Program-made: the position numbers and the translations under genes
Source: Microglena sp. YARC
Taxonomy: Eukaryota; Chlorophyta; Chlorophyceae; Chlamydomonadales; Chlamydomonadaceae
DNA: 64,000 bases
Assembly (NCBI GenBank): GCA_022414725.1
Contig: CM039463.1
Coordinates: 38,639,123-38,703,122, forward strand
Direction: 5' to 3'
Shown here: one piece after another, positions 13,450-60,600 of the stretch
Layout of the letters: each line of letters begins with the position of its first letter
Numbering within the stretch: position 1 is the stretch's first letter
Notes under the pieces: model-generated
Databases searched by the model: none
What the model was told of the DNA's origin: nothing
Seen by the model: only the letters and a program-made list of their open reading frames with translations

Positions 13450-14097
13450 CTAAGAAGTAGCGGTCATTCCAAGCATACGAACAAACCGCCAGAACACAGC
13501 AGGATCAAGGGGCTTGGTGAAGGGGTCAGCACAGTTATCCACAGTGTTAACATAGGCAACAGCCAGTTGGCCATCCTCCACCAGCTCCTTGATGTAGTGA
13601 TGAATAACATCAATGTGCTTGCTGCGAGGCAGAAGCTGCCAGTCAGTGGCCCAACTCAGGGAACCTAAGTTGTCACCCTGAATTGTAACCAAAGCACAAG
13701 GCAGACCCAGATCCACCCTCAATTTCTTCAACAATTGGACCTCCCTGGCAGCCTGGGACAGGGCCTGATACTCAGCCTCACTAGAGCTAATAGCAACAGT
13801 AGTCTGTCGCTTGCTCATCCAGTTAACAATGCACCCACCAGCTAGAACTGCAAAGCCAGTCTGAGATCTCCTGTCAGACCCATCATCAGCATAAGATGAG
13901 TCACTAAAGACAGTAAAAGTGAAATCAGGGCTGTGGGTGTAAGTGAGACCCAGGTGAGAATGTGTTCTCAAATACAAGAGTAACCGTTTGGCAGCCCCCC
14001 AGAGAGGGACTGTAGGGTGAGCAGAGAACCTGGATAAATAGCTAACAGCAAAAGGAAATATCAGGCCTGGTGCAAGTGGCCAGGTATAGCAAAGCAC
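13450..14097 (-). CDS. Copia RNase H (element 2 pol, C-terminal part)
   Basis: RNase H degrades the RNA strand of the RNA-DNA hybrid during reverse transcription. The 215-codon frame carries the Copia order of acidic residues: SDSSYADD (Asp about 66), SSSEAEYQAL (Glu about 107) and GDNLGSL (Asp about 142). It continues with SKHIDVIHHYIKELV and ends near RMLGM, as usual at the C-terminus of Copia pol. It is separated from RT by a frame break near 14100-14150, where a few tens of codons are lost or out of frame. No independent start is expected, since Copia pol is one polyprotein. Confidence 0.9.
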   Translation of the reverse strand: MLCYTWPLAPGLIFPFAVSYLSRFSAHPTVPLWGAAKRLLLYLRTHSHLGLTYTHSPDFTFTVFSDSSYADDGSDRRSQTGFAVLAGGCIVNWMSKRQTTVAISSSEAEYQALSQAAREVQLLKKLRVDLGLPCALVTIQGDNLGSLSWATDWQLLPRSKHIDVIHHYIKELVEDGQLAVAYVNTVDNCADPFTKPLDPAVFWRFVRMLGMTATS

Positions 14098-14147
14098 CTA
14101 CAAGAGAGAGGTACTGGCTATTAGACGGCAGGGGCTCTCCAGGGGCG

Positions 14148-15404: not shown

Positions 15405-15486
15405 TATGGTCTGAGTTGGTGTAAATCCAACGACTTCACCGACGGAATGTGACGCAGAGGAGGGCCTGGCGACCCCTGAGATTCGG

Positions 15487-16821: not shown

Positions 16822-17110
16822 TCTTGCAGTGGAGGGAATGAGCTACAGCATGTACGGACAGGAGATTTACTGGACAGTGGGGTATGTATAGAACATTGGT
16901 TAAGGTGATTGATGTTGGTAACCAATCACTACATAACACAATGGACCCCATACCCTCTGACCGTTGAATCACCCCATCAGCAAATCGAACTGCAGGCCCA
17001 ACAGCAGAGGATTCAAAACACAGTGAACAACGACCTATCACCTGTGATTGACATCCCAGCTCCCGAGTCCACATGCCAGATACCTTCAGAAAGACTTGGG
17101 CTGCAAATGT
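16811..17110 (-). pseudogene. Copia aspartic protease, frameshifted (element 2)
   Basis: On the minus strand near 17075-17050 one frame reads WHVDSGAGMSITGDRSLF, the Copia protease active site (DSG followed by Ala, with a Trp three residues before the Asp). That frame hits a stop soon after. The next frame (16811-17074) continues with VLYIPHCPVNLLSVHAV, the usual protease to pre-integrase junction. A single frameshift thus splits the protease after its catalytic motif. Confidence 0.85.
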
Positions 17111-17153
17111 TTGAGAACTTAGTCGTGCAAGAAAATAGGACAGAGCTTACCTC

Positions 17154-17528
17154 CTAGTTCTTTGAAATGGCGTACCCATCGATCTGAGCCTGCAAGGACG
17201 ACAGCTGCTTACGTGTAAGCGACCCTGGAAGGGCCAAAGCTACGGGCACCGGTTCAGAACCAGGTGCACGTCCCTTGGCCTTTCTGAGTTCCGAATACTT
17301 TGTGAAGCAGCGGTCTTCCGAGTGGCTCGTTTTCGAACGACAGGGTCCCCAAGTGCAATCCAAGCGCCTCTTGGTGCCCCCGGAACTCTGAGAACCAGAT
17401 CCCTTGCCCCGCTGGAAAGCAGCATTAGCAGGGATCTGGGGAGGGTCGCGGGACCAGCCAGGATGCCTTGGATCAGACCTGGGGAGAGACACATTTAAGA
17501 AATCTAACGATCTATAAACATCAGACAA
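17154..17528 (-). CDS. Copia Gag C-terminus with variant zinc knuckle (element 2)
   Basis: A 124-codon frame between the main Gag and the protease. It contains CTWGPCRSKTSHSEDRC, a C-x4-C-x5-H-x4-C arrangement. This resembles but is longer than the usual CCHC knuckle (C-x2-C-x4-H-x4-C) that binds the RNA genome. It is Arg/Lys-rich around the motif (GGTKRRLD, ELRKAKGRAPG), as expected of nucleocapsid. Confidence 0.7.
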   Translation of the reverse strand: MSDVYRSLDFLNVSLPRSDPRHPGWSRDPPQIPANAAFQRGKGSGSQSSGGTKRRLDCTWGPCRSKTSHSEDRCFTKYSELRKAKGRAPGSEPVPVALALPGSLTRKQLSSLQAQIDGYAISKN

Positions 17529-17561
17529 GACCAGTAGTCTACGGTCTTGTTCTGGTACAAC

Positions 17562-18104
17562 TCAAAGCCAAACTGGAGGCGCAGCGAATCGAATCGAGGG
17601 TGAGTGATGCCATTTGATTATAGTGTGCATCGCGTGACGCTGCGGCTGCGGGTATCCCGCACTGCGAAGATCAGTGCACAACTGCCGCACCCTGCGAAAG
17701 AACACATCCACGGGTTCAGAGTTGTTCATGGTCACACTACGAAGCTCAACAAGCATGAGGGGAACCCGAGCAGCAAGGGCATCAGAATGCTGCCTCTTGA
17801 TATGCAGTAAGATATCGCGAGGTGTGGCAAAATCCTGATACACCTGTACCATCGGTTCCGTCATGTGCGCGAGCATCATGGTGAGACACATGAACTCCTG
17901 GCGTGCAAGGGGCAGGGTACTAAATCCTAACAGTGCAGGATCTACACGAGTCTGACTAGGAGAGGCAGGTGGTGAGGCAAACAGGCGAAAACGGCGTGGC
18001 ATCATACATAGCGCGAACCGACAGAAAGTACTCGGCAGCGATGCCAGCATCATATGCACGCTGGTCATCAAGGTTCTCAATCTCATCCAAAGAACTTGCA
18101 ACAT
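17562..18104 (-). CDS. Copia Gag middle region, shifted frame (element 2)
   Basis: It continues Gag after a frame break near 17990-18000, where the upstream frame ...MYDATPF is followed in this frame by RLFASPPASPSQTRVD. The helical region includes LLHIKRQHSDALAARV and DVFFRRVRQLCTDLRSAGY, similar in style to the Copia Gag (UBN2-like) capsid fold. Another break near 17600 separates it from the zinc-knuckle frame. Confidence 0.75.
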   Translation of the reverse strand: MLQVLWMRLRTLMTSVHMMLASLPSTFCRFALCMMPRRFRLFASPPASPSQTRVDPALLGFSTLPLARQEFMCLTMMLAHMTEPMVQVYQDFATPRDILLHIKRQHSDALAARVPLMLVELRSVTMNNSEPVDVFFRRVRQLCTDLRSAGYPQPQRHAMHTIIKWHHSPSIRFAAPPVWL

Positions 18105-19350
18105 TTACGAGTAGCTCAAAATCTGGCCTAGGAGGTACAAAGCTGAGAGGAACTTTGGCAAACTGGTACTTGCGTAGATTTGCATTTCGAACTCCCAATC
18201 CACCAAAGGTAGCACCACCAGGAGGGGGGTAGTCAATCCCTGCCTGCACAGGCCCCAGATAAGCACGGCATGCATGACCCAACTCAGAGAACACCATCAC
18301 TCGCCTAGCCCGCCCCTTCGTATCTAGATTAGCCCGAGTGGCAGCCTGATCCATCCTACCGTACAAAGTGCGGTCCAAGGAGTCACCAGCTTTCTGCGCC
18401 TGGCGAATTTGGCGGCAACTCCGCACATCCATGCGCGAAGGTGTGGAGCCATCAAGCAGGTGCTCCCAGGATAAGCATCCCAGCGAGCGATTCGGGTAGT
18501 AGGGCAGGGGGGGAGGAAAAGGAGAAGGGGCAGGAGGCTGCTCCACCGGTGGAGGTGGAGGTGGATTCAGGGAGGGGCCAGCAGCATCGCTGTGGACACT
18601 CGAGGCAGCAGCAGCAGTCTCACGAGACCGCGTGTGGTAGCCAGCCAGAGCTCGCTCAGAAGGGTTGCGAACAAAGGGAAGGGGAGGAATCAAAGGACCA
18701 AGTGACGAGCTTCTCAGCAAAGTCGGCATAGCCAACTCAGGTACCGCAGGTGGATGCGGAGGAGCAGTCGGAGGCTTGTAGACAGGAGGAGGAGGAGGAG
18801 GAGGAGGAGCCGACTGGTGCTCAAACACCGGAGACTCAAAAACACGAGTGGCAGTGGAAGGTGTGACTCCACCGAAGTCACCACTCCGCGCACTCTGTAG
18901 GTCTTCCTCTTTGTCGTCATCGTCATCCTCAGTGTAGTAGCCATCTTCATGCTTATGGCGAGCCAGATCAGCATTGTCATACTCAAAACGGGCATCAGGA
19001 GGCGGAGGAGAAGACTTGTATTTGATGATCTGAGTCGAGACGCAGCATAGACGCATAAGAATATCCTCTACCTCAGGAAGGAGGCGTTGGACAAGAGGAG
19101 AAGGAGGGAGAGAAATGGAGGTTTGGTAGGGGGGGATGTCTTCCATGATGGCGGAAGGAGACTCATCTAAGGCAGCAAAGGCCGCTGGCGCACAATCATC
19201 AAGCCAATCAGTGGGAACACGAGTCTTGAACGGAAGAATGCGGTCGCAGCCATTGGATACAATGACGCTCTCCATACCGCGCGACCAAGACAAACCATTC
19301 TGTGGGGTTAGCTTTTCGAAGCCGGCAGGAGGCCCACGCGGAAGTTGCAT
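17956..19350 (-). CDS. Copia Gag N-terminal part (element 2)
   Basis: A 464-codon frame starting MQLPRGPPAGFEKL, 38 bp inside the 5' LTR boundary. The first 85 residues align with the Gag fragment of element 1. They are followed by an acidic block (YYTEDDDDDKEEDL, about 140-153), Pro-rich stretches and a structured part from about 290 (CLSWEHLLDG, RRVMVFSELGHACRAYL). The frame ends after MYDATPF through an apparent single-base frameshift and continues at 17562-18104. The long disordered Pro-rich insert is unusual compared with the compact Gag of plant Copia elements. Confidence 0.82.
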   Translation of the reverse strand: MQLPRGPPAGFEKLTPQNGLSWSRGMESVIVSNGCDRILPFKTRVPTDWLDDCAPAAFAALDESPSAIMEDIPPYQTSISLPPSPLVQRLLPEVEDILMRLCCVSTQIIKYKSSPPPPDARFEYDNADLARHKHEDGYYTEDDDDDKEEDLQSARSGDFGGVTPSTATRVFESPVFEHQSAPPPPPPPPVYKPPTAPPHPPAVPELAMPTLLRSSSLGPLIPPLPFVRNPSERALAGYHTRSRETAAAASSVHSDAAGPSLNPPPPPPVEQPPAPSPFPPPLPYYPNRSLGCLSWEHLLDGSTPSRMDVRSCRQIRQAQKAGDSLDRTLYGRMDQAATRANLDTKGRARRVMVFSELGHACRAYLGPVQAGIDYPPPGGATFGGLGVRNANLRKYQFAKVPLSFVPPRPDFELLVNVASSLDEIENLDDQRAYDAGIAAEYFLSVRAMYDATPFSPVCLTTCLS

Positions 19351-35680: not shown

Positions 35681-35906
35681 CTTCCTAAAGCTGATGATGA
35701 CATTAGACATCCAATGATGATGATTATTACATTTTCCCTGGTGCCTTACTGGACTCAAAATGTGCCCTCGGTTTGACGGAGTCCAGGGGGACTTCCATCG
35801 GTGGACCCCTCAACCTCACGCCTTGTAATAAGGCGTACTATTCATGTATTTATTTAGACATCGAGCAACCCCAGGGGGGGCTGCTGGGGATTTATTGATG
35901 TATTTG

Positions 35907-35914
35907 TCATGAAG
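35907..35914. repeat. 8-bp direct repeat TCATGAAG, left
   Basis: TCATGAAG directly precedes the YR retrotransposon. The same 8 bp directly follow the hAT-like MITE at 42605-42612. Confidence 0.85.
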
Positions 35915-36156
35915 GCCGCATTTCCCACACAGTAGTGGGTGAAATGGAGTATTCAGCCGCGCGACGTAAGATTCCGCAGGACGCATTCATATTTCAAATA
36001 CCCGTAAACCCCCGGGCAAAACCAGGAGTAACCACCGCCAGTGTTTTCCCAGCAGTACTGTCCTGCCCGGTATAAAATCAAGTGCACAGTCACTGGGGGC
36101 ACTAAATTCTTGGTGCCCCAAGCTGCTGAGCCTTGATCTGAACCAAATTTCGAGTT
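35915..36156 (+). repeat. Split direct repeat A1
   Basis: 242 bp, nearly identical to A2 at 41677-41918. It opens with a small hairpin (CATTTCCCACACAGTAGTGGGTGAAATG) and contains a TATA box. Confidence 0.93.
36071..36077 (+). promoter_or_regulatory. TATA box of the YR retrotransposon
   Basis: TATAAAA lies 95 bp upstream of the Gag ATG (36166) inside A1. The same motif sits in A2 at 41833-41839. Spacing to the ATG allows a start site near 36100 and a short leader. Promoter function is inferred. Confidence 0.65.
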
Positions 36157-36165
36157 TCGAATACC

Positions 36166-36499
36166 ATGGCCCGCACCAAGAAGACCGCGCGCATGGAGAC
36201 CGGCGGCAGGAAGCCCGCCCCACCCAAGAAGACCAACGCGCCTCCTACCAAGACCTCCAAGAAGGCCAAGATCGCTCCAGCCAAGGCCTTCCCAGCCAAG
36301 ACCGCCCCAGCCAAGACCAAGGGCTCCTCCAAGCCTCAAGGGTCCCAGCCGGGAGACTCCCTCCCCTCCAGATCTGTGACATCTGGATCCAAGCGCCCAC
36401 GCGAGGAGGACGCCTCCTCGGTCAACTCCGAACTGTTGGTGGAGGCCAACGGGATCATCAAGGACTTGCAAGCGTCCATCAAGGAGAAGGAGAGGAATG
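36166..36499 (+). CDS. YR element ORF1 exon 1: histone H3 tail mimic and basic disordered region
   Basis: The start ATG has a strong context (ACCATGG) just after A1. The protein begins MARTKKTARMETGGRKPAP. Counting after the Met, residues 1-4 (ARTK), 6-8 (TAR) and 11-13 (TGG) equal histone H3. K4, R2, R8 and T11 are kept, while Q5, K9, S10 and K14 are replaced. A Lys/Pro/Ala-rich stretch (about 15-55) resembles a linker-histone tail. SKRPREED (75-82) is a likely nuclear signal, and a helix with coiled-coil-like spacing occupies 86-110. No histone fold follows. The exon ends AAT G|GTGAGAGT. The codons are GC-rich, unlike pol. This is an unusual N-terminus for a retrotransposon Gag. Confidence 0.85.
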
Positions 36500-36765
36500 G
36501 TGAGAGTATTGCTTGCCCGTCTTCTTCCCTCTCTCCCCCCCCCCCTTTTGCACCGCGGACCGTAGTCGACCTTCGCGTTCTCCTTTTGCCTTCCTTTTCT
36601 GCTCAGTGCCTTTGCACAGCAGCCCTGTTAGCCCTGTAGGTTGCGTCGCCCTGCCCGTGCTAGCATTATCCCCCTACAGAACCCACCCGTGTTCATAGCC
36701 TTTTTCCAGATCTTTAACCAAGCCCCACCCCCCCCACCCCCACCCCCCCCTACCTGTCCGTTCAG
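36500..36765 (+). other. Probable intron in ORF1
   Basis: GTGAGAGT donor at 36500 and pyrimidine-rich CCTGTCCGTTCAG acceptor ending at 36765 (266 bp). Joining in phase 1 gives an open frame on both sides. Without splicing, the frame runs into a Pro/Leu-rich tail and stops at 36639. Confidence 0.65.
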
Positions 36766-37786
36766 ATCCCCACGTCGAAATCCTACCCGATGTTCCCGCG
36801 AACCGAAAGACGAACGCACACGGACCTTCGAAAAAAGATCGCACTCAAAAGCACCGCAATCCCAACCCATCGAAAGATGAGTGGGCAGCGCCAGGCTTAG
36901 TAGTCGACCTATCGAAAGTTCCGGATCAGGCCCTCGTTGACCTGCACGATCGACTTGCTAGCCCCAGGGCTCTCAAGAAACTCCGAGTTGAACGGCCTGA
37001 ACTTTACCAAACTATCGAAGCGGCTCTGGGTATCAAGGATCTGGGATGCGATCTCACCAGACCTACATGAAATGTGGTCAGGCGTTATCGGAGTTCCATG
37101 CAAAATCCCCAGACCTACCAGATGCCAGCCGATTTCCTGGATAAACTCATGGCCTTGAACTCACCATCGACAGCTCAGTGCAAGGTCAAGACGAAAGTCT
37201 CGGCCCTTGTCCAAGAGTGCGCCGATGGGGAGGGCAAACGGACGAGATCGTGTGGAATACCCTGGGTTTGTTCGCGTTCGATACCCCCAGGAACCTTATC
37301 AAGTCCATGCAGGACACGATTTGGACCCTGAGCACCTTGTACACCGCGGCACAGGCAGCAGGCAATTTCAAAACCTGCTTCTATGCTTTCTGGGCGTACA
37401 AGGCTGCCCGCGACCTCTATGAGGACCAGTGGAGTGCCCTGACCAAAGCCCTCGGGATTGAGAAGGCGCACGAGCTGTTGATCGAAAGAATGAAACCTTT
37501 CGGTGAAATTTCTAACGATCAGTGGGACAAGCTAGTAAGCTTGGCTAAGGGGGGTAAGTTCGAGGATGCATGCATCGCCCTCGCCCCGCAAATCAGACGT
37601 TCCCTGGATTACCAGAAGGAACAGGCTGAAGCGAAGGACGGAAGGCCGGTGCGCTGCAGCCACTGTGGCATTGAAGGCCACTCGGCTGAGCAATGCTACA
37701 AAGGCAAGAACAAGAGGCAGAGGAAATCGCCAAAGGGGATGACAAGAAGTGAGCCTTCTAACAAGGCCCTCCCTGCTTCATTGTAG
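36766..37786 (+). pseudogene. YR element Gag body with CCHC knuckle, interrupted
   Basis: After splicing, the frame encodes DLHDRLASPRALKKLRVERP and LYQTIEAALG, then meets TGA at 37068-37070. The same frame goes on with TYQMPADFLDKLMALNS and SALVQECADGEG until a one-base shift in a G-rich run at about 37225. The rest is open to 37786: EIVWNTLGLFAFDTPRNLI, a helical segment, and the zinc knuckle CSHCGIEGHSAEQC (C-x2-C-x4-H-x4-C). The knuckle is followed by the basic KNKRQRKSPKG. This looks like a DIRS-type Gag that binds the RNA genome. Whether the stop and shift are real or sequencing errors is unclear. Confidence 0.75.
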
Positions 37787-37799
37787 GTGAGAAGGGGGA

Positions 37800-38780
37800 G
37801 TGTGGGAATCTGGTAGATGAGATGTACCAACCCCATGACTTGGAAGACAGGGAAAAGTGGTTCAACTCGTCTGGGATCAAGCTGAATGCTGAGAGATGGA
37901 TATTCTGGGCGGATAAATTAGGAGTCCCCTGTCCTTTAGCAGCCTTAGGCCCTGTTTCTTGGGAATGGAAGACCACCCCTCCAGCCCCCATAGAGGTGAA
38001 CAACCACACCAGTGCTTTGCTCAACCTCCCCCCCTTGTCTCTGAGTTAGATAAGGCTGAGAAGCTAGGCTTGATAGAGTTCTTGCAGGCAGATCAGGACC
38101 AGGCAGACTTTGTTAGCTGCATCAACCCGTTTGGGGTTAGGATCAAGCCTAATGGCAAGGCTAGAATTCTAGTAGATCCCACCATCACTGGGGTAAATGG
38201 TTGTATGAACAAGCTACCTTGCTCACTCACCACCCCTGAAACATTCATGAAGACGCTCACCACAACAGATATGTTGGGTAAAAGAGATCTGACGAATGGA
38301 TTCTATCATGTTTCCCTGCATCCTTCAGCTAGGAGGTACATGGGATTCAGACACCCTGTGACAGGTAAAATTGGTAGATGGATAGCTCTCCCTCAAGGCA
38401 CAGCCCAGAGCCCCATTTTTTCTGTGAGTTGACCGACTTCTCCAAGTTGATTTTCAACCACAGTTTCAATGAGCATGGTGTCAAGGCCACCTGTGATGTC
38501 TATGTGGATGATTACCCCATCAGGGCTGATACACACGTAGACATGCAGAGGGCCTTCGAGATCATGGACAGAGAAGCTGAACTGCTAGGACTAGAGTTCA
38601 ATCCCTCTAAAGATGAAGGTGCCACCCAACCCACAACCAGACTGGAAGTGCTAGGGCTACTGCTAGATGCACCTCTCTTGAAAATGGACCTCCCGGCCCA
38701 CAAGAAGCAACTGTACAGAGCAGAAGTCCTTAAGACACTACAGTCAAGGAAGGAGGGAGGCATCCTCAGAAGGAAAGAAC
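37800..38780 (+). pseudogene. YR element reverse transcriptase (DIRS type), frame-broken
   Basis: The leader HDLEDREKWFNSSGIKLNAE runs to about 38030, where a poly-C run shifts frame into ELDKAEKLGLIEFL. RT motifs follow: CINPFGVRIKPNGKARILVD, TTDMLGKRDLTNGFYHVSL with the first catalytic Asp, GRWIALPQGTAQSP, a shift in a T-run at about 38405, then CDVYVDDYPI with YVDD at 38501-38512. The GFYHVSLHPSARRYMGF and LPQGTAQSP segments are typical of DIRS/PAT RTs rather than LTR elements. The thumb region ends near RRKELEM with another one-base shift at about 38785. Confidence 0.88.
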
Positions 38781-39856
38781 TTGAAATGCCTAGTGGGGAA
38801 GCTAGTCTGGGCGTCTAAGGTGACACCTTGGGGATACTTGCACATCCAACACCTGTTTGATGCCTTATATCCTGTCACCACCAACCATACCACTCACAAA
38901 CCAAAGGCTGTAATCCCTTGGACACAGGGCACACTAAGTGACCTGGAGTTTTGGGACAGGGCTCTGGAGATGGAGTGGCACGAGTCGGTAGGGGTACATG
39001 AAAGCATGTTGGCCAGAAAGGATGTACACGTGGACAGTAAAGCCTTCAAGGTCCACATGTACACAGATGCCAGCAAGGTATTCGGTGCAGGTGGAACTTT
39101 GGGCGATGACACATACTCCTATCCCTGGCCAGAAAACAGGCAACATGTGCATATAGGCATCCTAGAATCGAAGCATGCATGATTTGCTTACAGCACTGGG
39201 CACATGAACTGGCAGGAACGTCAGTACTTTGCTACATGGACAATGTCCAAGCTGTTTCAGCTGTGAATAAGGGGGGTTCTAGGATACCAGGCATCAGGGA
39301 TGCTCTGGCACAGATGGCACTCACAGGCCTTAAGTATGGGTTCACTGTCAAAGCCAAGCATGTTAAGGGAGAGTTAAACCCTGCAGACGCCCCCAGCAGG
39401 GGAAAAGCATGCAGCACCAACAACCATTACGTGTTCAAATTTTTTGACAGGCATAACAACCCCCCAGCCACCATTGACTGCTTTGCTGCAGCAGATGGGT
39501 ACAACAAGCATGACCGGTGCACAAAATGGTTCTCCATCCAACGCCCACTTGTATCACACTGGGAATCACTTTCTGGCCAAGTGTCTTGGGCCAACATCCC
39601 ATTCTCTGCATTAGGAACAACTCTGGATCTCCTGTATGCGGCTTGGGTAGCCTCACCCTCTGACACAATTTGCACAGCACTGGTGCCTAAATGGCCAGAT
39701 GCTATTTGGTTTAGGAAGTACCTTAGGGACAAGAACCCCAAGTTTAGGGTACTAGCAACTTACCCTGAGGGCGCCAGGATTTTCCTTGACCCCAGTTCAG
39801 GAAAAACCACAGGCCCAATTCCACACACCATGCTTGTGATCAGGTCTGCTCAGTAA
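38781..39856 (+). CDS. YR element RNase H and downstream DIRS domain
   Basis: Two overlapping frames, 38781-39182 and 39179-39856, join at about 39175 (LESKHA / MICLQHW) across one missing base. RNase H carries YTDASKVFGAGG (Asp), LESKHAM (Glu), YMDNVQAV (Asp) and the DIRS-typical GELNPADAPSRG. After it comes ATIDCFAAADGYNKHDRC, SLSGQVSWANIPFS and WPDAIWFRKYL, the C-terminal domain found after RNase H in DIRS and PAT elements (sometimes called methyltransferase-like). The frame stops at TAA 39854-39856, and the same frame resumes in the PHD-like finger. Confidence 0.85.
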
Positions 39857-39895
39857 CTTACCCCCCCTTTCTTCTTCCTCCCAACCCCCATAGGA

Positions 39896-40030
39896 TGTAC
39901 CATCTGCCAAGGCACCAAGGGAAGGATGCTTAGGTGCACCAATTGCGACCAGCACAGCCACCCCCAGTGCCTCAGCTTGGGCAGGAATGCCATGTCCTGT
40001 GGTACATTCAAGTGCCAGCCTGCATTTTAA
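39896..40030 (+). other. PHD-like C4HC3 zinc finger in the YR element pol region
   Basis: The segment reads C-x2-C-x9-C-x2-C-x4-H-x2-C-x9-C-x4-C (CTIC, CTNCDQHSHPQC, CGTFKC), then ends at TAA 40028-40030. Cys/His order and spacing fit the PHD class, with a short last loop and no Trp before the final Cys pair. It lies in the same frame as RNase H, separated by TAA 39854 and a pyrimidine-rich stretch ending CCCCATAG that resembles a 3' splice site. The recombinase follows in another frame. Many PHD fingers bind the free N-terminus and K4 of histone H3, the sequence copied at the start of ORF1 of this element. Confidence 0.75.
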
Positions 40031-41075
40031 TTGAGTGCAACCTCCACATCACTAGCGCCCAAGGCCAGCAAGGTGCCAGGAGGTTAGTGATGCTGGAGGG
40101 CTCAACCCTGGCTGTCAGTTTGCAAGACACTTATGCAAGTGCTCTTAAGCGGTACACCAGGTGCATGGCTGAGGTATACATAATTACTGAGCAGGAGGCA
40201 CTCCCCCCTGGCCCCAAGGAACAAGTGCCACTGACGCTAGTAAAGCTGTTCATGGGTTGGGCGGCAGGTCACTACAAACCTGCCACCATTCAAACAACCC
40301 TGTCAGCACTAGCAGAATGGCACAGGTCTAAGGGACTGGACCTTCACACTCTGAACTCCAGTGTTGTGGGACAGCTCTCACAGGCCATCAGGGTGTTCCA
40401 GGGGCCTGAGGGAGTCTCCTCTGGCAAGCAGGGCATATGTAAGTCCCTCATTATCAAGTGTCTGGAGACCATGAGGAAGCTGAAGACCCTGCAGCCCCAC
40501 ATGGAGGACTTGTTTACTAGAGACGCAGCTTGGCTAGTGATGGTTTCTTTGGCCTCCTTAGAAGGAGTGAGCTTATTGCTTTGCGTTTGTCAGATGTGGT
40601 GACTAAGAAGGATCATGTAGTTGTCCACATCAGACGCTCCAAAACAGACCAGGAAGGGAAAGGAGCCACTGTAGTGCTCCCAGCCCAATGTAGGTACTCA
40701 CTTAGAGTCAGGAGGATTATATATGCCCTCTTACAGCTTAGAACCCGTCAGGGCGCCACGCCAGAGGACCACCTCATCACCGCCTGGGACCTAGACTCCC
40801 TTAGCTTGTCTTCCTCCCCCCTTCTTTCAGGTCAGGCTTTGTCCTATCGACTAAAGTCTTATCTCACTGCTATTGCACACTCTCACCCCAAACTGGACAT
40901 AGATCCAGCTAGGTTTGCCATGCACAGCCTCAGACGGGGAGGTGCAGTAGCAGCTTGGGCTAATGGGGCAGACCTAGAGACTATTAGAACTCAAGGTAGA
41001 TGGAAATCAGATGCCATTAAGGCATATCTGATCCCAGACCTCTCGGTCAAGTTGAACTTTGCCTCCAGCCTCTGA
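40031..41075 (+). CDS. YR element tyrosine recombinase
   Basis: Tyrosine recombinase that should insert the circular cDNA. The N-terminal SAM-like part lies in the frame through 40602 (VSLQDTYASALKRYTRC, KLFMGWAAGHYKPATIQTTL). A one-base shift at about 40540 leads to the catalytic frame 40530-41075: LLRRSELIALRLSD (Arg 11/12), VVHIRRSKTDQEG (Lys region), MHSLRRGGA (H132, R135), GRWKS (W158 in the second His position) and IKAYLI (Tyr 166). The R-H-R-(H/W)-Y set is complete. The product ends just before B1, as in PAT elements. Confidence 0.9.
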
Positions 41076-41251: not shown

Positions 41252-41676
41252 CAGTGACTCTTGCATATGGTAGAAGCACAAAGACAGACCTGAACAGTCT
41301 GGACTTACAAGCTAGATAGTGCAGTTGACTTTATTTAATGGTAAAAGCTGATGAGACCAGTAAAGCCAGCTAGTGGTGTGATATACCCCCTAATTAAGGG
41401 AAATATCACACTCAAAGCTAAAACTTTACAAGGCCCAGCATACACCTTAAATATGTCTACTAGCACTTGTACCAATGGGGGCCCCATCTGAAAGATCGCT
41501 GGACCTCTCGGGCAGTGTCTCAATGTCCAGCAAGCAGGCCCCCATACTTTTGCAAATATAAGTACTGACAATGATGAAGCCTGCATGTGCTTCATTTCCT
41601 CAACCCTTAAGGGTAAATTATATGTATTGGAAATATGAAAAAGCAACTGTAAGGAATCTGAGTCAACCGTCTGAAT
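41252..41676 (+). repeat. Split direct repeat B1
   Basis: About 425 bp, nearly identical to B2 (42008-42429), directly joined to A2 at 41677. Confidence 0.92.
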
Positions 41677-41918
41677 GCCGCATTTCCCACACAGTAGTGG
41701 GTGAAATGGAGTATTCAGCCGCGCGACGTAAGATTTCGCAGGACGCATTCATATTTCAAATACCCGTAAACCCCCGGGCAAAACCAGGAGTAACCACCGC
41801 CAGTGTTTTCCCAGCAGTACTGTCCTGCCCGGTATAAAATCAAGTGCACAGTCACTGGGGGCACTAAATTCTTGGTGCCCCAAGCTGCTGAGCCTTGATC
41901 TGAACCAAATTTCGAGTT
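41677..41918 (+). repeat. Split direct repeat A2
   Basis: 242 bp copy of A1 with a second TATAAAA at 41833-41839. An 89-bp spacer (41919-42007) separates it from B2. Confidence 0.92.
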
Positions 41919-42007: not shown

Positions 42008-42429
42008 GTAGCGACTCTATTGGTAGTAGCACAAAGACAGACCTGAACAGTCTGGACTTACAAGCTAGATAGTGCAGTTGACTTTATTTAATGGTAAAAG
42101 CTGATAAGACCAGTAAAGCCAGCTAGTGGTATGATATACCCCCTAATTAAGGGAAATATCACACTCAAAGCTAAAACTTTTACAAGGCCCAGCATACACC
42201 TTAAATATGTCTACTAGCACTTGTACAATGGGGGCCCCATCTGAAAGATCGCTGGACCTCTCGGGCAGTGTCTCAATGTCCAGCAAGCAGGCCCCCATAC
42301 TTTTGCAAATATAAGTACTGACAATGATGAAGCCTGCATGTGCTTCATTTCCTCAACCCTTAAGGGTAAATTATATGTATTGGAAATATGAAAAAGCAAC
42401 TGTAAGGAATCTGAGTCAACCGTCTGAAT
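42008..42429 (+). repeat. Split direct repeat B2
   Basis: About 422-bp copy of B1, ending GTCTGAAT at the boundary with the hAT-like MITE. Confidence 0.92.
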
Positions 42430-42604
42430 CAGGGTACTTCCAAGCGCGCTGCCTTTTTGAGCCCCACTCCGCGTTTGGCGCAATTTTTTGCAACCCCCTG
42501 TGGGCGCAGCAAGCAATTTTTGCGCTTTTTGCACTACAAAGCGCAGTTTTTAATATTTCAAGTGCGCTTAAGCGCTGGCCAATTTGGTCAATGGAAGTAC
42601 CCTG
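42430..42604. mobile_element. hAT-like MITE abutting the YR retrotransposon
   Basis: 175 bp from CAGGGTACTTCCA to TGGAAGTACCCTG, with GC-rich subterminal inverted motifs as in 10347-10534. TCATGAAG follows its right end, but its left neighbour is B2, and the matching TCATGAAG lies 6.5 kb away before A1. The MITE was therefore there first. Confidence 0.88.
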
Positions 42605-45599: not shown

Positions 45600-46592
45600 T
45601 AGATTCTGCGCTACTTGGATGTATCAGTCCACCAACACATACCGCAGTTGTGTAACCTCATTTTTTATCTCCACCACCATTACAGGGATGCCAACATCAA
45701 CCACCACCACCACCACCACCAATAACAACAACAACACAAACGACAAGAACAAGCAATATCACCATAAGCACCAAAAGCATGAACTCATATCTATCCACCA
45801 AAAGCTGCCACAGTTGTATAACCTCATATTTCATCTCTTCCACTTTCACATGGCTGCCACCACCACCACCACCACCACAAACAACAAATAACAACAACAC
45901 AAACGACAAGAACAAGCAATATCACCATTAGTCTCTACCTTCTAGGTTCTGTGCTACTTGGATGTATCGGTCCACCAACACCTGTCACAGTTGTATAACC
46001 TCATCTTTTATCTCCACCACTTTAACATGGCTGCCAATATCAACCACAACCACCACCACCACCACCAACACCACCAACACCACCAACAACAACACAAACG
46101 ACAAGAACAAGCAATATCACCCTATGCACCAAAAGCATGAGCTCATATCTATCCACCAAAAGCTGCCACAGTTGTATAACCTCATCGTTCATCTCTTCCA
46201 CTTTCACATGGAACCACCACCACCACCACCAACACCACCACCACCAACACAAACGACAAGAACAAGCAATATCAACGTACGCACCAAAAGCATGAGCTCA
46301 TATCTATCCACCAAAAGCTGCCACAGTTGTATAACCTCAACGTTCATCTCTTCCACTTTCACATGGAACCACCACCACCACCACCACCACAACCACCACC
46401 ACCACCGACACAAACGACAAGAACAAGCAATATCACCCTATGCACCAAAAGCATGAGCTCATATCTATCCACCAAAAGCTGCCACAGTTGTATAACCTCA
46501 TCGTTCATCTCTTCCACTTTCACATGGCACCACCACCACCACCACCACCAACACGATCGACAAGAACAGGCAATATCACCATTAGTCCTTAC
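45600..46592 (-). repeat. Tandem array of coiled-coil exon copies separated by CAC runs
   Basis: At least five units of about 145-200 bp. On the minus strand each encodes a (V)KVEEM..EV.QLW.LLVDRY-type heptad segment, bordered by CACCAC trinucleotide runs and an ACAAACGACAAGAACAAGCAAT segment. The units resemble the better preserved exon at 46593-46718. The repeat is therefore an exon plus adjoining intron, not a simple satellite. Trp/Val- and His-rich frames through it are artefacts. Confidence 0.6.
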
Positions 46593-46718
46593 CTTCTAGG
46601 TTCTGCGCTACTTGGATGTATCGGTCCACCAACACATGACGCAGTTGAGTAACCTCATTTTGTATCTCCACCACCTTCACAGGGTTGCCGATGAATCGAC
46701 ACGTCCGGCTGAAGAGGC
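46593..46718 (-). CDS. Well-preserved exon of the duplicated coiled-coil gene
   Basis: A 126-bp exon on the minus strand between TTGTTGTCAG|GCCTCTTC and CTAGAAG|GTAAGG, both good splice sites. It encodes LFSRTCRFIGNPVKVVEIQN followed by EVTQLRHVLVDRYIQVAQNL, an amphipathic helix with heptad-like spacing. Related exon copies lie to the left (array), at 46830-46905 (FSQEFCDFIG) and across the satellite at about 60530-60600 (LFSRTCRFIRRP). I do not recognise the family. Confidence 0.5.
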
Positions 46719-46739
46719 CTGACAACAAGTATTGGATCT

Positions 46740-46826
46740 GCACGAGGTGCATGTGTGTGTTTGAGTTTGTCTGTGTGTTTGTGTATGTTTGAGTTTGTCT
46801 GAGTGTGTCTGTGTGTTTTTGGTTGA
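46740..46826. repeat. TGTGTTTGAGTTTGTCTG repeat
   Basis: A short GT-rich tandem between two exon-like copies, with TGTGTTTG/AGTTTGTC units. Confidence 0.75.
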
Positions 46827-46905
46827 AAGGGTCCTTCCCCATGCAAATGCCAATGAAGTCACAGAACTCTTGAGAGAACTCAGGTCCAGACAACAAGAAT
46901 TGGAT
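46827..46905 (-). pseudogene. Exon copy with damaged acceptor
   Basis: The minus strand encodes GPEFSQEFCDFIGICMGKDP. It is preceded by TTGTTGTCTG instead of TTGTTGTCAG, so the acceptor AG is lost. It abuts the satellite array. Confidence 0.5.
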
Positions 46906-46914
46906 CTGCCAACA

Positions 46915-49900
46915 ATAAGTAACAAGTATTGGATCTGCACAAGCCAAGACAATAGTGACCACCAGTTCCATAAAGTAACAAGTATTGGATCTGCACAAGC
47001 CAAGACAATAGTGACCACCAGTTCCATAAAGTAACAAGTATTGGATCTGCACAAGCCAAGACAATAGTGACCACCAGTTCCATAAAGTAACAAGTATTGG
47101 ATGCACAAAGCAAGACAATAGTGCACAAGCCAAGACAATAGTGACCACCAGTTCCATAAAGTAACAAGTATTGGATCTGCACAAGCCAAGACAATAGTGA
47201 CACCAGTTCCATAAAGTAAACAAGTATTGGATCTGCACAAAGCCAAGACAATAGTGACACCAGTTCCATAAAGTAACAAGTATTGGATCTGCACAAGCCA
47301 AGACAATAGTGACCACCAGTTCCATAAAGTAACAAGTATTGGATCTGCACAAGCCAAGACAATAGTGACCACCAGTTCCATAAAGTAACAAGTATTGGAT
47401 TCTGCACAAGCCAAGACAATAGTGACCACCAGTACAAGTATTGGATCTGCACAAGCCAAGACAATAGTGACCACCAGTTCATAGTACAGTATATTGGATC
47501 TGCACAAGCCAAGACAATAGTGACCACCAGTTCCATAAAGTAACAAGTATTGGATCTGCACAAGCCAAGACAATAGTGACCACCAGTTCCATAAAGTAAC
47601 AAGTATTGGATCTGCACAAGCCAAGACAATAGTGACCACCAGTTCCATAAAGTACAAGTATTGGATCTGCACAAGCCAAGACAATAGTGACCACCAGTTC
47701 CATAAAGTAACAAGTATTGGATCTGCACAAGCAAGACAATAGTGACCACCAGTTCCATTAAAGTAACAAGTATTGGATCTGCACAAGCCAAGACAATAGT
47801 GACCACCAGTTCCATAAAGTAACAAGTATTGGATCTGCACAAGCCAAGACAATAGTGACCACCAGTTCCATAAAGTAACAAGTATTGGATCTGCACAAGC
47901 CAAGACAATAGTGACCACCAGTTCCATAAAGTAACAAGTATTTGGCCAATCTGCCAAGCCAAGACAATAGTGACCACCAGTTCCATAAAGTAACATAAAG
48001 TAACAAGTATTGGATCTGCACAAGCCAAGACAATAGTGCACCAGTTCCATAAAGTAACAAGTATTGGATCTGCACAAGCCAAGACAATAGTGACCACCAG
48101 TTCCATAAAGTAACAAGTATTGGATCTGCACAAGCCAAGACAATAGTGACCACCAGTTCCATAAAGTAACAAGTATTGGATCTGCACAAGCCAAGACAAT
48201 AGTGACCACCAGTTCCATAAAGTAACAAGTATTGGATCTGCACAAAGCCAAAGACAATAGTGACCACCAGTTCCATAAAGTAACAAGTATTGGATCTGCA
48301 CAAGCCAAGACAATAGTGACCACCAGTTCCATAAAGTAACAAGTATTGGATTGCACAAGCCAAGACAATAGTGACCACCAGTTCCATAAAGTAACAAGTA
48401 TTGGATCTGCACAAGCCAAGACAATAGTGACCACCAGTTCCATAAAGTAACAAGTATTGGATCTGCACAAGCCAAGACAATAGTGACCACCAGTTCCATA
48501 AAGTAAACAAGTATTGGATCTGCACAAGCCAAGACAATAGTGACCACCAGTTCCATAAAGTAACAAGTATTGGATCTGCACAAGCCAAGACAATAGTGAC
48601 CACCAGTTCCATAAAGTAACAAGTATTGGATCTGCACAAGCCAAGACAATAGTGACCACCAGTTCCATAAAGTAACAAGTATTGGATCTGCACAAGCCAA
48701 GACAATAGTGACCACCAGTTCCATAAAGTAACAAGTATTGGATCTGCACAAGCCAAGACAATAGTGACCACCAGTTCATAAAGTAACAAGTATTGGATCT
48801 GCACAAGCCAAGACAATAGTGACCACCAGTTCCATAAAGTAACAAGTATTGGATCTGCACAAGCCAAGACAATAGTGACCACCAGTTCCATAAAGTAACA
48901 AGTATTTGGAATCTGCACAAAGCCAAGACATAAATAACAAGTGACCACCAGTTCCATAAAGTAACAAGTATTGGATCTGCACAAGCCAAGACAATAGTGA
49001 CCACCAGTTCCATAAAGTAACAAGTATTGGATCTGCACAAGCCAAGACAATAGTGACCACCAGTTCCATAAAGTAACAAGTATTGGATCTGCACAAGCCA
49101 AGACAATAGTGGACCACCAGTTCCATAAAAGTAACAAGTATTGGATCTGCACAAGCCAAGACAATAGTGACCACCAGTTCCATAAAGTAACAAGTATTGG
49201 ATCTGCACAAGCCAAGACAATAGTGGACCACCAGTTCCATAAAGTAACAAGTATTGGATCTGCACAAGCCAAGACAATAGTGACCACCAGTTCCATAAAG
49301 TAACAAGTATTGGATCTGCACAAGCCAAGACAATAGTGACCACCAGTTCCATAAGTAACAAGTATTGGATCATTGCACAAGCCAAGACAATAGTGACCAC
49401 CAGTTCCATAAAGTAACAAAGTATTGGATCTGCACAAGCAGACAATAGTGACCACCAGTTCAAAGTAACAAGTATTGGATCTGCACAAGCCAAGCATAGT
49501 GACAAGCCATGAAGACAATATTGGATCTGCACAACCAAGACCAGTTCCATGAAGTAACAGTATTGGATCTGCACAAGCCAAGACAATAGTGACCACCAGT
49601 TCCATAAAGTAACAAGTATTGGATCTGCACAAGCCAAGACAATAGTGACCACCAGTTCCATAAAGTAACAAGTATTGGATCTGCACAAGCCAAGACAATA
49701 GTGACCACCAGTTCCATAAAAGTAAACAAGTATTGGATCTGCACAAGCCAGACAATAGTGACCACCAGTTCCATAAAGTAACAAAGTATGATCTGCACAA
49801 GCCAAGACAATAGTGACCACCAGTTCCATAAAGTAACTAAGTATTGGATCTGCACAAAGCCAAGACAATAGTGACCAACCAGTTCCATAAAGTAACAATT

Positions 49901-52900
49901 TATTGGATCTGCACAAGCCAAGACAATAGTGACCACCAGTTCCATAAAGTAACAAGTATTGATCTACAAGCCAAAGACAATGTGACCACCAGTTCCATAA
50001 GTAACAAGTATTGGATCTGCACAAGCCAAGACAATAGTGACCACCAGTTCCATAAAGTAACAAGTATTGATCTGCCACAAGCCAATTGACACCAGCCAAG
50101 TTATTGGATCTCAAGACAATAGTGACCACCAAGAGTAACAAGTATTGGATCTGCACAAGCCAAGACAATAGTGACCACCAGTCCATGTAACAAGTATTGG
50201 ATCTGCACAAGCCAAGACAATAGTGACCACCAGTTCCATTAAAGTACAAGTATGGATCGCACAAGCCAAGACAATATGACCACCAGTTCCATAAAAGTAA
50301 CAATATTGGATCTAAACATAGTGGAGTCCATAAGTAACCATTGGATCTTGCACAAAGAGCGCAATCAGGTAAATTTCCATAAAGTAACAAGTATTGGATC
50401 TGCTATAGTGACCACAGTTCCAAAAAGAAGTAACAAGTATTGATTGCACAAGCCAAGACAATAGTTCCATCCAACAGAAGGACAAGTATTGGATCTGCAC
50501 AAGCCAAGACTTAGTGACACCACAAGTAACAAGTATCGATCTGCAACAAGCCAGTTGATCCAGAAGTAACAAGTTATTGGATCTGCACAAGCAAGACAAT
50601 AGTGACCACCAGTTCATAAGTAACAAGTATTGGATCTGCACAACGCCAGACAATAGTGACCACCACCAGTCCATAAAGAACAAGTATTGGATCTGCACAA
50701 GCCAAGACAATAGTGACCACCAGTTCCATAAATAACAAGTATTGATCTGCACAAGCCAAGACAATAGTGACCACCAGTTCCATAAAAGTAACAAGTATTG
50801 ATCTGCACAATGCCAAGACAAATAGTGACCACCAGTTCCATAAAGTAACAAGTATTGGATCTGCAACAAGCCAAGACAATAGTGACCACCAGTTCATAAA
50901 GTAACAATATTGGATCTGCACACAAGCCAAGACAATAGGTGACCACCAGTTCCATAAAGTTAACAAAGTATTGCCAAACAATCTGCCACAAAGCACAAAG
51001 TGACCTGGAATAGTGACCACCAGTTCCATAAAGTAACAAGTATTGGATCTGCACAAGCCAAGACAGATAGTAAATAAAACGGACCACCACATATATAGTG
51101 ACCACCAGTTCCATAAAAAGTAACAAGTATTGGATCTGCACAAGCCCAAGTCTTCCATATAGTACAACCAGTTCCATGAAAAAGTAACAAGTATTGGATC
51201 TGCACAAGCCAAGACAATAGTGACCACCAGTTCCATAAAGTAACAAGTTATTGGATCTGCAACAAAGCCAAGACAATAGTGACCACCAGTTTCCATGAAG
51301 TAACAAGTATTGGATCATTGCACAAAGCCAAGACAATAGTGACCACCAGTTCCATTAAAGTAACAAGTATTGGATCTGCACAAGCCAAGACAAATATAGT
51401 TGACACCACCAGTTCCATAAAGTAACAAGTATTGGATCTGCACAAGCCAAGACAATAGTGACCACCAGTTCCAAGAAATAACAAGTATTGATCTGCACAA
51501 GCCAAAGACAAATAGTGACCCCCAGTTCCACAAAAGAAGTCACAAGCCAAGACAATATGGATCTGCCAACAAAGCCCAAGAACAAATTAGTGAACCACCA
51601 GTTCCAAAGCCAAGACCAAAGTAACCAAGTATTGGATCTGCACAAGCCAAGACAATAGTGACCACCAGTTCCATAAAGTAACAAGTATTGGATCTGCACA
51701 AGCCAAGACAATAGTGACCACCAGTTTCCATAAAGTAACAAGTATTGGATCTGCACAAGCCGAAAAGACAATAGTGACCACCAGTTTCCATAAAGTAACA
51801 AGTATTGGATCTGCACAAGCCAAGACAATTAGTGAACCACCAGTTCCATATTGAAGTAACAAGTATTGGATCTGCACAAGCCAAGACAATAGTGACCACC
51901 AGTTCCATAAAAGTAACAAGTATTGGATCTGCACAAGCCAAGACAATAGTGACCACCAGTTCCATTAAAGTAACATTGAAGTATTGGATCTGCACAAGCA
52001 AGCAAGACAATAAGTGGACCACCAGTCCATAGCCAAGTAACAAGTATTGGATCTGCACAAGCAAGACAATAGTGCTCCACCAGTTCCAGTATAAAAGTAA
52101 CAAGTATTTGGACTGCCAACCAAGACTATAGTGCCCACCAGTTGAAAGTAACAAGTATTGGATGCACAAAGCCAAGACGACATAGTGACACCAGTTCCAT
52201 GAGAAGTAACAAGCCAAGACAATAGTGACCACCAGTTCCATAAAGTAAACAAGTATTGGATCTGCCACAACGCCCAAGCACAAGTTCCTAAAGACAATAG
52301 TGACCACCAGTTCCATAAAGTAACAAGTATCTTGGATCTGCATCAAGACAAACACCAGTTCCATAACAGTAACAAGTATTGATCTGCACAGCCAAACAAT
52401 AGTGACCAACCAGATTCCAATAGTAAAGTAACAAGTATTGGATCCGCACAAAGCCAAGACCAATAGTGACCACCAGTTCCATAAAGTAACAAGTATTGGT
52501 ATCTGCCACAAGCCAAGACAATAGTGACCACCAGTTCCATAAAGTGTAACAAGTATTGGATCTGCACAAGCCAAAGACAATAGTGACCACCAGTTCCAAT
52601 AAAGTAACAAGTATTGGATCTGCACAAGCCAAGACAATAGTGACCACCAGTTTCCATAAAGTAACAAGTATTGGATCTGCACAAGCCAAGACCAATAGTG
52701 ACCACCCAGTTCCATAAAAGTGACAAGTATTGGATCTGCACAAGCCAAGACCAATAGTGACCACCCCAGTTCCATAATAGTAACAAGTATTGGATCTGCA
52801 CAAGCCAAGACCAATTTAGTGACCACCAGTTTCCATAAAGTAACAAGTATTGGATCTGCACAAGCCAAGACAATAGTGACCACCAGTTCCATAAAGTAAC

Positions 52901-55900
52901 AAGTATTGGATCTGCACAAGCCAAGACAATAGTGACCACCCAGTTCCATAAGTAACAAGATCTAAGTATTGACACCAGTTCCCCATTGGGAAATGTATTG
53001 ATCTGCACAAGCCAAGACAATGTAGTGTGTTCCACAAGCACAATCTGCCAAGACAATAGTGACCACCAGTTCCATAAAGTAAACAAGTATTGGATCTGCA
53101 CAAGCAAGACATAAGACCAGTTCCATTAAATAACAATATTGGGATCTGCACAAGCCGAAGGACAAGCGCCACCAGTTTCCATAAAAGTAACAAGTATTGG
53201 ATCTGCACAAGCCAAGACAATAAGCCCAATATGACCACCAGATTGCACAGCCAAGAACAAAGTAACAAGTATTGGATCTGCACAAGCCAAGACAATAGTG
53301 ACACCAGTTCCCATAAAGTAAGCAAGTATGGAGTTTCGACACAAGCCAAGACAATAGTGGACCACCAGTTCCATGAAGTAACAAGTATTGGATCTGCACA
53401 AGCCAAGACAATAGTGACCACCCAGTTCCATAAAGTAAACAAGTATTGGATCTGCACAAGCCAAGACCACTCAAACAATAGTGACCACCAGTTCCATAAA
53501 GTAACACAGTATGTCGGCACCAAGCCATTAGCACAAGACCACCTATTCCATTAACGATCAATAGTGTTATACCATATGTATTGGATTCTGCCACATTTCC
53601 ATGAGGTAACATCTGCAAGTTCCATAAAGACAATAGTGACCACCAGTTCCATTAAAGTAACAAGTATGGATCTGGCCACAAGCCAAGTTCCATAAATAAC
53701 AATAGCTGAACCACCAGTATCCATAAGTAAGTTTAACAAGTATGGATCTGCACAAGCCAAGTCAATAGTGACACCAGTTCCATAAAGTAACAAGTATTGG
53801 ATCTGCACAAGCCAAGACAATAGTGACCACCAGTTCCAAAGTAACAAGTATTGGATCTGCACAAGCCAAACAATAGTGACCACCAGTTCCATAAAGCAAC
53901 AAGTATTGGATCTGCACAAGCCAAGACAATTAGTGCCACCAGTTCCATAAAGTAACAAGTATTGGATCTCAATAGTGACACACAAGAACAAAGTGACCAC
54001 CAGTTCCAAGTAACAAGTATTGGATCTGCACAACCAAGACAATAGTAGCACAAGTATTGGATCTGCACAAGCCAAGACAATAGTGACCACCAGTTCCACA
54101 AAGTCTGCCAGCCAGGATTAGGACCACAGCCCAATTCAAGACCTGCACAAGTATTGGATCTGTAGTGACCAAGTAACAAGTATTGGATCAAGTTCCATCA
54201 AGTAACAAGTATTATGCCAAGACATAGTGACCACCACCATTACAAGCCAAGTAGATCTGCACAAGCCAAGAGTCCACCAGTAACATCTCGACAGTATTGA
54301 TGTGCACAATAGTGGATCATGAGCCAACAGTCCTGCACTAATCTCCATTGACAATAGTGGATACAAGTATTAACAAGCCAAGACAATAGTGACAAGTTCA
54401 TAAAGTAACAAGTATGTGATGCACAAGCCAAACAATAGTGACACCAGTCCATAAAGTATTGGATCTGCACCAAGCAATGAAGTAACCAATAGAGTGACCA
54501 CCAGTTCCATAAAAATAACAAGTATTGGATCTGCACCACCAGTTCCATAAAGTAACAAGTATTGGATCTGCACAAAGCCAAGACAATAGTGACCACCAGT
54601 TCCACAATAACAGTAAGTAACAAAGTGACCACCAGTTCCATAAAGTAACAAGTATTGGAATCTGCACAAGCCAAAGTGGAGTTCCAATATTGGATCTGAC
54701 CACCAGTTCCCAAGTATTGGATCTGCAACAAAGCCAAGACAATAGTGACCACCAGTTCCATAAAGTAACAAGTATTGGATCTGCACAAGCCAAGACCAAT
54801 AGTGACCACCAGTTCCATAAAGTAAACAAGTATTGGATCTCTGCCACAAAGCCAAGACAATAGTGACCACCAGTTCCATAAAGTAACAAGTATTGGATCT
54901 GCACAAGCCAAGACAATAGTGACCACCAGTTCCATAAAAGTAACAAGTATTGGATCTGCACAAGCCAAGACAATAGTGACCACCAGTTCCATTAAAGTAA
55001 CAAGTATTGGATCTGAACAAGCCAAGACAATAGTGACCACCATTCCATAAAGTAACAAGTATTGGATCTGCACAAAGCCAAGACAATAGTGACCTACCAG
55101 TTCCATTAAAGTAACAAGTATTGATCTGCACAAGCCAAGACAATTAGTGACCACCAGTAAAGCCATAAAAGTAACAAGTATTGGATCTGCACAAGCCAAG
55201 AACAATTAGTGACCACCAGTTCCATAAAGTAAACAAGTATTGGATCTGCACAAGCCAAGACAATAGTGACCACCAGTTCCATAAAGTAACAAGTATTGGA
55301 TCTGCACAAGCCAAGGACAAATAGTGACCACCAGTTCCATAAAGTAACAAGTATTGGATCTGCACAAAGCCAAGACAATAGTGATCTGCCACAAGACAGT
55401 TCCATAAAGTAACAAGTATTGGATCTGCACAAGCCAAGGACAATAGTGACCACCAGTTCCATAAAGTAACAAGTATTGGATCTGCACAAGCCAAGACAAT
55501 AGTGACCACCAGTTCCATAAAGTAACAAGTATTGGATCTGCACAAGCCAAGACAATAGTGACCCACCAGTTCCATTAACAAGTAGATCTGCAAAGCCAAG
55601 ACAATATACCACCAGTTCAAAGTAACAAGTATTGGATCTGCACAAGCCAAGACAAATAGTGACCACAGTTCCATAAAGTAACAAGTATTGGATCTGCACA
55701 AGCCAAGACAATAGTGACCACCAGTTCCATAAAGTAACAAGTATTGGATCTGCACAAGCCAAGACAATAGTGACCACCAGTCCATAAAGTAAACAAGTAT
55801 TGGATCTGCACAAGCCAAGGACAATAGTGACACCAGTTCCATAAAGTAACAAGTATTGGATCTGCACAAGCCAAGACAATAGTGACCACCAGTTCCAAGT

Positions 55901-60520: not shown

Positions 60521-60524
60521 CTCC

Positions 60525-60600
60525 ATTTTTTTAGTTGTGAAAGGACTTTCACTCCAGGAGGCGGGTCTCCTGATGAAGCGGCACGTTCGGCTGAAGAGGC
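60525..60600 (-). pseudogene. Exon copy on the far side of the satellite
   Basis: The minus strand after TTGTTGCCAG encodes LFSRTCRFIRRPASWSESPF, which resembles 46593-46718 in its first 11 codons and then diverges. Its 3' splice site is intact. Confidence 0.5.

Follow-up and report, generated by a model that had tools for sequence, protein, structure and literature searches.

We analysed a stretch of 64,000 nucleotides from the green alga Microglena sp. YARC (assembly GCA_022414725.1, contig CM039463.1, positions 38,639,123 to 38,703,122; referred to below as the window, with positions counted from its first letter), which carries a retrotransposon on the plus strand. The element has two pairs of split direct repeats, A1 (35906-36156) with A2 (41669-41918) and B1 (41268-41676) with B2 (42021-42429), and each pair is 98.8% identical. 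As features of the element, A1 takes up 35915-36156 and opens with GCCGCATTTCCC (the same letters are found in the window copy and in five other copies inspected), with a TATA-like box at 36069; B1 takes up 41268-41668 and runs directly into A2, and B2 closes the element with CCGTCTGAAT. Split direct repeats were also found in three other copies (L202, L204 and L205), and inspection of their flanks by eye revealed no obvious target-site duplication. In another copy (L203, 5714-7898), the 3' end of the element carries an array of A2-spacer-B2 modules in tandem, with a period of 754 bases.

Between A1 and B1, all on the plus strand, we were able to identify a spliced ORF1, Pol, a PHD finger and a tyrosine recombinase (YR). 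Exon 1 of ORF1 (36166-36499, ending in phase 1) encodes a histone H3-like tail, a Lys/Pro/Ala stretch, a KRPREED signal and an end that, judged by eye, resembles a helix. This exon is separated by a 266-base GT-AG intron (36500-36765) from Gag exon 2 (36766-37786), which keeps the frame and contains a CCHC knuckle (CSHCGIEGHSAEQC; the zf-CCHC match is weak, with E of 0.36 in copy L206). Pol (37787-39853) contains the reverse transcriptase (RT), followed by RNase H-like and methyltransferase-like regions, which have no Pfam match and were read by eye. The PHD finger (39894-40023) comes after a polypyrimidine-AG acceptor-like site and precedes the YR (40024-41072). The window copy is frameshifted in Gag, Pol and PHD-YR (in the PHD finger, at the last CxxC); the longest open frames in other copies reach 703 codons for Pol and 412 for YR. 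An Rfam scan gave nothing at the gathering threshold.

The RT of the window copy matches PF00078 in two pieces (E of 4e-4 and 0.01) and the YR matches PF00589 (E of 1.6e-5, 25.2 bits, cut-off 27.1); both fall below the curated cut-offs, and we counted them as an RT and a YR. In an alignment of 22 YR rows the RRSE and HSLRRGG columns are invariant. The structure model of a PHD-YR relative (P0007, pLDDT of 86) gave Foldseek matches to Cre and Xer; its best 50 matches were recombinases and included no PHD chain. Since the split direct repeats occur together with these RT and YR matches (both below the curated cut-offs), the element is by its sequence features a PAT-type tyrosine-recombinase retrotransposon, as the type is defined in the parts of PMC3266345 drawn on here. 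A sequence-only reading of this DNA had already proposed a PAT/Kangaroo-type element, and the split direct repeats bear this out. The element shares with PAT-like YR retrotransposons (PAT, TOC, Kangaroo) the A1..B1A2..B2 repeats, a Gag-like ORF, an RT and a YR, as well as the lack of an obvious target-site duplication. Relative to the elements described in those parts of PMC3266345, the H3-like Gag start, the PHD finger on the YR and the ORF1 intron are extras of the window element.

The ATG at 36166 is the first one after the TATA-like box and has the context ACCATGG. ORF1 is spliced as modelled, from exon 1 to Gag exon 2, because four intronless copies (L193, L194, L195 and L199) lack precisely the 266-base intron; these represent at least two loci, since L193-L195 sit in one array. 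That array (G000:C6:13990700-14005600) holds three copies with intronless ORF1 starts, 6,746-6,748 bases apart, and Gag is truncated in two of them when read further (L207). Among the gene models in the protein collection, P0055 and P0059 begin with MARTKK, and the partial model P0060 (12 members) is without the tail and begins at Met10. P0059 and P0060 make the same exon 1-exon 2 join as modelled here, and P0055 joins exon 1 deeper into Gag.

Acceptor-like sites before Pol (37786/37787) and before the PHD exon (39893/39894) both fit the phase of exon 1, as checked by hand. A member of a sister family (L244 3391-3405, G000:C758) shows precisely the predicted exon 1-Pol join, and the two sides of the join are 98.6% and 99.0% identical to L241 of that family. 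We did not take this as proof of exon 1-Pol splicing, since a 7-base direct repeat (GGTGAGA) occurs at both sites in L244 and a plain deletion through this repeat could have produced the join. Splicing of exon 1 to the PHD exon is compatible in phase, but a search of the genome for such a junction with up to 2 mismatches gave 0 matches, and this candidate was set aside. A fusion of Pol to PHD-YR by splicing was rejected because the phases are incompatible (by hand).

The opening block of ORF1 is MARTKKTARMETGG (36166-36207, plus strand), and the translation from 36166 reads MARTKKTARMETGGRKPAPPKK. We compared it with the N-terminus of histone H3, ARTKQTARKSTGG, which is also present in the H3 chains of PDB matched by phmmer. 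Ten of the 13 residues after the Met are identical, which we count as an N-terminal tail of the H3 kind. In H3 numbering the start reads A1 R2 T3 K4 K5 T6 A7 R8 M9 E10 T11 G12 G13, with the changes Q5>K, K9>M and S10>E. The probability of at least 10 H3 residues out of 13 is 1.6e-9 to 4.5e-9, as calculated from the composition of exon 1. Among 77,552 stop-free 13-mers in the six frames of the window, the ORF1 start has 10 H3 matches and all others have at most 6. When a 22-residue ORF1 query was searched against PDB using phmmer, the best 60 of the 126 matches were all H3 or H3-derived chains (best E of 0.004). The sequence-only reading had described a 10/13 likeness to H3 with K4 and its context kept and the K9/S10 pair changed; the translation, the composition statistics, the window scan and the PDB search all uphold it, and the changed pair is K9M/S10E.

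Clear likeness to H3 stops at residue 14, and both features said to follow it, the Lys/Pro/Ala stretch and the KRPREED signal, are present in the translation. The same reading had found no histone fold behind the tail. Our Pfam search of ORF1 agrees with this, as no family was matched at E up to 0.1, and ORF1 is thus considered to be without a histone fold.

A degenerate MARTKxTAR pattern gave at least 129 matches in viral and prokaryotic contigs (12 viral and at least 117 prokaryotic). Among the matches listed, four score 13/13, namely three H3-like genes and a piece of 38 residues that is H3-like; apart from these the maximum is 9/13. We note histone H3-like genes at L050, L090 and L112 on GTDB contigs filed as bacterial genomes; these contigs are probably eukaryotic contamination. 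A divergent H3-like start (9/13) is found at L142.

We searched the genome G000 (568 Mb, 2390 contigs) at the DNA level and obtained 113 candidates, of which 40 were scored; these copies are 84-100% identical, and all 40 were read. The block MARTKKTARMETGG is exact in 28 of the 40. One copy has GTG for ATG with the remainder of the 14-residue block intact, 7 have one or two replacements in the block, and 4 have it disrupted by frameshifts; all 36 copies with the block in frame have Met at position 9. The sequence-only reading had named a chance histone fusion in this copy alone as one way in which its proposal could fail, and this is excluded because the start is shared by many copies.

ORF1 evolves under purifying selection. 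On the internal branches of a tree of the 40 copies, exon 1 has 13 nonsynonymous (N) and 19 synonymous (S) changes (dN/dS of 0.22, p of 3e-5); the terminal branches have 97 N (including 5 stops) and 61 S (dN/dS of 0.52). From the internal value compared with the terminal one, ORF1 looks selected during the spread of the copies and decaying afterwards. For the 14-residue block itself, the counts are 0 N and 2 S (internal branches) and 16 N and 12 S (terminal branches). Among four proteins aligned over exon 1 (107 gap-free columns), there are 0 replacements in residues 1-21 and 14 variable columns elsewhere (P of 0.04); between the window and P0003, 14 of 86 sites differ in residues 22-112. Between the window and copy L198, codons 1-21 differ by 0 N and 2 S, and codons 22-111 by 11 N and 9 S. 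A tighter constraint on the block than on the rest of exon 1 is only weakly shown: the extra constraint on the 14 residues alone has P of 0.12, and the longest invariant run of exon 1 is not unusual (P of 0.5).

Protein searches with ORF1, including a profile search at E up to 10 that scored 7989 candidates, retrieved only P0001-P0003. Since these searches covered proteins of 86-275 residues, longer Gags may have escaped them, including complete ones from other species; P0055 and P0059 did escape them and were recovered through the PHD-YR search. P0001-P0003 are 96-97% like the best copies in G000 and probably come from this species or one very close to it, and the H3-like motif was found in one genome only (with its copies there or very near). 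In viral contigs, the ORF1 profile had 0 relatives among 94 stretches, the Gag piece had 0 relatives of 1, the YR piece gave 23 loci, 0 of them with another piece of the element, and the PHD-YR profile gave 2 weak loci.

A genome search with the RT piece, in which 150 of 168 candidates were scored, gave at least 143 matches, some of them from families that are 67-78% identical. In the sister family L241, Gag is homologous (52.5% identity over 316 residues) and starts with MTRNTQKTRVSRSKAPKPAPKPAKK, which is basic and has 4 of the 13 H3 residues. Upstream stretches were inspected for six RT relatives (L241-L246): L244 is without an L241-like start, and L242, L243, L245 and L246 gave no ORF1 start; none was found in L247-L249 either. 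As far as seen, the motif is thus private to the window family, and a PAT-type element does not need it, since L241 has a homologous ORF1 start without it. An H3-like start as a general trait of Kangaroo/PAT-like elements is not supported by these results.

The sister family bears on two alternative explanations. The first is that the tail simply serves as a nucleic-acid-binding start of Gag, basic, disordered and rich in Lys/Pro/Ala; its H3 likeness would be convergent and would not lead to recognition as H3. L241 is equally basic without the motif (16 K+R in the first 60 residues vs 17 in the window family), as this explanation would have it; however, a P of about 4e-9 given the protein's own composition, an ordered ARTKxTARxxTGG match at the very N-terminus and a block kept exactly in 28 of 40 copies speak against it, and we regard it as rather unlikely. 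According to the second, an ancestor captured part of an H3 gene, which has no H3 role now and is kept as the start of ORF1. Of the four agreements of L241 with H3 (R2, Q5, R8 and S10, by hand), two (Q5 and S10) fall where the window family has other residues; this faintly suggests an ancestor with an H3-like start (P of about 0.03, hand estimate), but the agreements can also be chance. The selection on ORF1 and the end of clear likeness at residue 14 also count against such a capture, which appears improbable to us.

The YR frame of copy L206 opens with a C4HC3 PHD finger, CTICQGTKGRMLRCTNCDQHSHPQCLSLGRNAMSCGTFKCPAC (L206 4150-4278), a feature that the sequence-only reading had overlooked. 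It matches the full length of PF00628, scoring 22 bits within the ORF against a cut-off of 24, and 27.4 bits as a cut-out piece, and we counted it as a PHD finger. The eight zinc ligands are complete in 7 of 9 other copies fetched, and the remaining L200 and L207 are without the PHD region. The nearest solved chains are the PHD fingers of KMT2D, KMT2C, KDM5, DPF, AIRE, PHF21A (BHC80) and BAZ2, among others. PHD is a domain type that often reads the H3 tail, and those of KDM5, AIRE, PHF21A and BAZ2 are H3-tail readers that prefer K4me0. PHD fingers that read H3 use acidic or aromatic residues for R2/K4 and often have CDGC; the finger of the element has a net charge of +4 and CTNC at this place. 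A PHD-like pattern was seen in 17 of 63 PHD-YR relatives, many of which are too short N-terminally to tell. In P0008 and P0031 the pattern occurs twice (tandem), and the first finger of each is of the CDGC kind; P0008 is filed under a Spirochaetia MAG and probably comes from a eukaryotic contig.

A literature search for a PHD finger combined with a retrotransposon and a tyrosine recombinase found none among open-licence papers. Ginger1 transposases have a PHD finger attached to a DDE transposase, as an extra domain at the C-terminus, according to the parts of PMC2836005 consulted. A PHD finger on the integration enzyme is common to both, and the window element differs in having a tyrosine recombinase with the PHD finger in front.

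As a PHD finger precedes the YR both in the window and in 7 further copies, tail and finger may form a private pair, in which the Gag tail would be the ligand of the element's own PHD-recombinase and would package or hold the recombinase until its release on chromatin. The H3-tail readers among the nearest solved PHD fingers and the pattern in the YR relatives would suit such a pair. Against it, the reading of an H3-like tail by this finger is weakened because the finger is basic and without the usual acidic residues, no ORF1 relative was found outside the window family, so that the PHD-YR relatives are not known to carry the tail, and no exon 1-PHD junction occurs in the genome; we consider the pair quite improbable. 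A still more elaborate scheme, which is at best a long shot, would give the element a histone code of its own. In it the K4-side tail of Gag would be the ligand and the PHD finger of the recombinase the reader, a shared leader exon could put the tail on both Gag and Pol (perhaps also on the recombinase), and the integration enzyme would be held in the particle by the false tail and handed to the real H3 on chromatin.

Because the element has a near copy of the H3 tail together with a PHD finger on its own recombinase, we consider it likely that it contacts or deceives chromatin proteins by mimicking a histone. The reading we prefer, with a probability of roughly 0.4, is that the tail acts as a functional mimic of the K4 side of H3, so that proteins which recognise the free A1-R2-T3-K4 end of H3 would either dock on it or be lured away by it. 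After removal of the first Met, the protein would have a free Ala-Arg-Thr-Lys end (tail peptide ARTKKTARMETGGRK), and multimers formed through the exon 1 end and the Gag portion would display many such tails. Host K4-side factors (in Chlamydomonas, MUT11/SET1 and the H3T3 kinase MUT9) could then be engaged, and the particle would be tethered to chromatin or silencing factors would be drawn off; docking and decoy would both fit. Because of Met9 and Glu10, the tail would be exempt from K9 methylation and would not be read by chromodomains.

Support for a K4-side mimic comes from the 10/13 match with its low probability, the H3 chains in the PDB search, the 28 exact copies, the internal dN/dS of exon 1 with no replacement in the block, the invariant residues 1-21, the start at the first ATG in good context and the K4-side silencing factors of Chlamydomonas. 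In the parts of PMC6952782 that we used, MUT11 interacts with SET-domain enzymes, SET1 (H3K4me1) acts in the silencing of a transgene and TOC1, MUT9 phosphorylates H3T3 and is required for heritable silencing, and knockdown of SET3 (H3K9me1) did not release dispersed elements. By analogy, such K4-side factors might recognise the residues kept in the tail. The reading is weakened by the restriction to one genome, the 4/13 score of L241, the weak extra constraint on the block, the 16 N and 12 S on its terminal branches, and the start of P0060 at Met10.

As for the K9 side, the parts of PMC5030085 consulted report that K9M peptides bind the SET domains of Clr4 and G9a more strongly and inhibit Clr4, and that Clr4 binding is strongly reduced when K9M is combined with phospho-S10 or S10D. 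Given the reduced Clr4 binding of K9M-S10D, we see more promise in the K4 side, and the tail is more likely a K4-side mimic that would not be silenced via K9. An H3K9M-type trap, in which Met9 behind T-A-R would lock host H3K9 methyltransferases and blunt silencing, would agree with the Met9 of all in-frame copies and with the kept Arg adjacent to Lys that G9a requires (PMC8541646, as far as consulted), but the S10D result, with Glu at 10 here, lowered it as a lead reading, and together with the SET3 knockdown makes it very improbable. The tail shares with oncohistone-type H3K9M the Met9 after T-A-R, and differs in having Glu at 10 and in not being part of a histone.

Histone H3 tail mimics are known, for example, in G9a and influenza NS1, which have in common with ORF1 a short H3-like sequence in a non-histone protein. 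The mimic of the window element differs in being N-terminal and K4-sided, in carrying K9M/S10E, and in belonging to a retrotransposon Gag. Taken together, the H3-like start is confirmed, occurs in many copies and belongs to an ORF under selection, in an element of known type with two unusual parts that relate to chromatin; their function is what we infer from sequence. If the tail is read as H3, this would be a mobile element that uses histone mimicry at a free N-terminus, and the way in which tyrosine-recombinase retrotransposons reach chromatin and avoid being silenced could then be put to the test; the PHD finger of the recombinase is a ready candidate binding partner for the H3-like tail in vitro.

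Other repeats found in the window include a MITE-like repeat (42430-42604, ends CAGGGTACTTCCA/TGGAAGTACCCTG) that is inserted at the outer end of B2 and has a related stretch at 10347-10507; TCATGAAG flanks both sides of the element plus this insert. Copia-like polyproteins are seen by eye in the ORF list on the minus strand at 3913-5016 and 13450-19350. A long repetitive region (46582-60654), with repetitive ORFs of up to 1237 codons, is probably a satellite.
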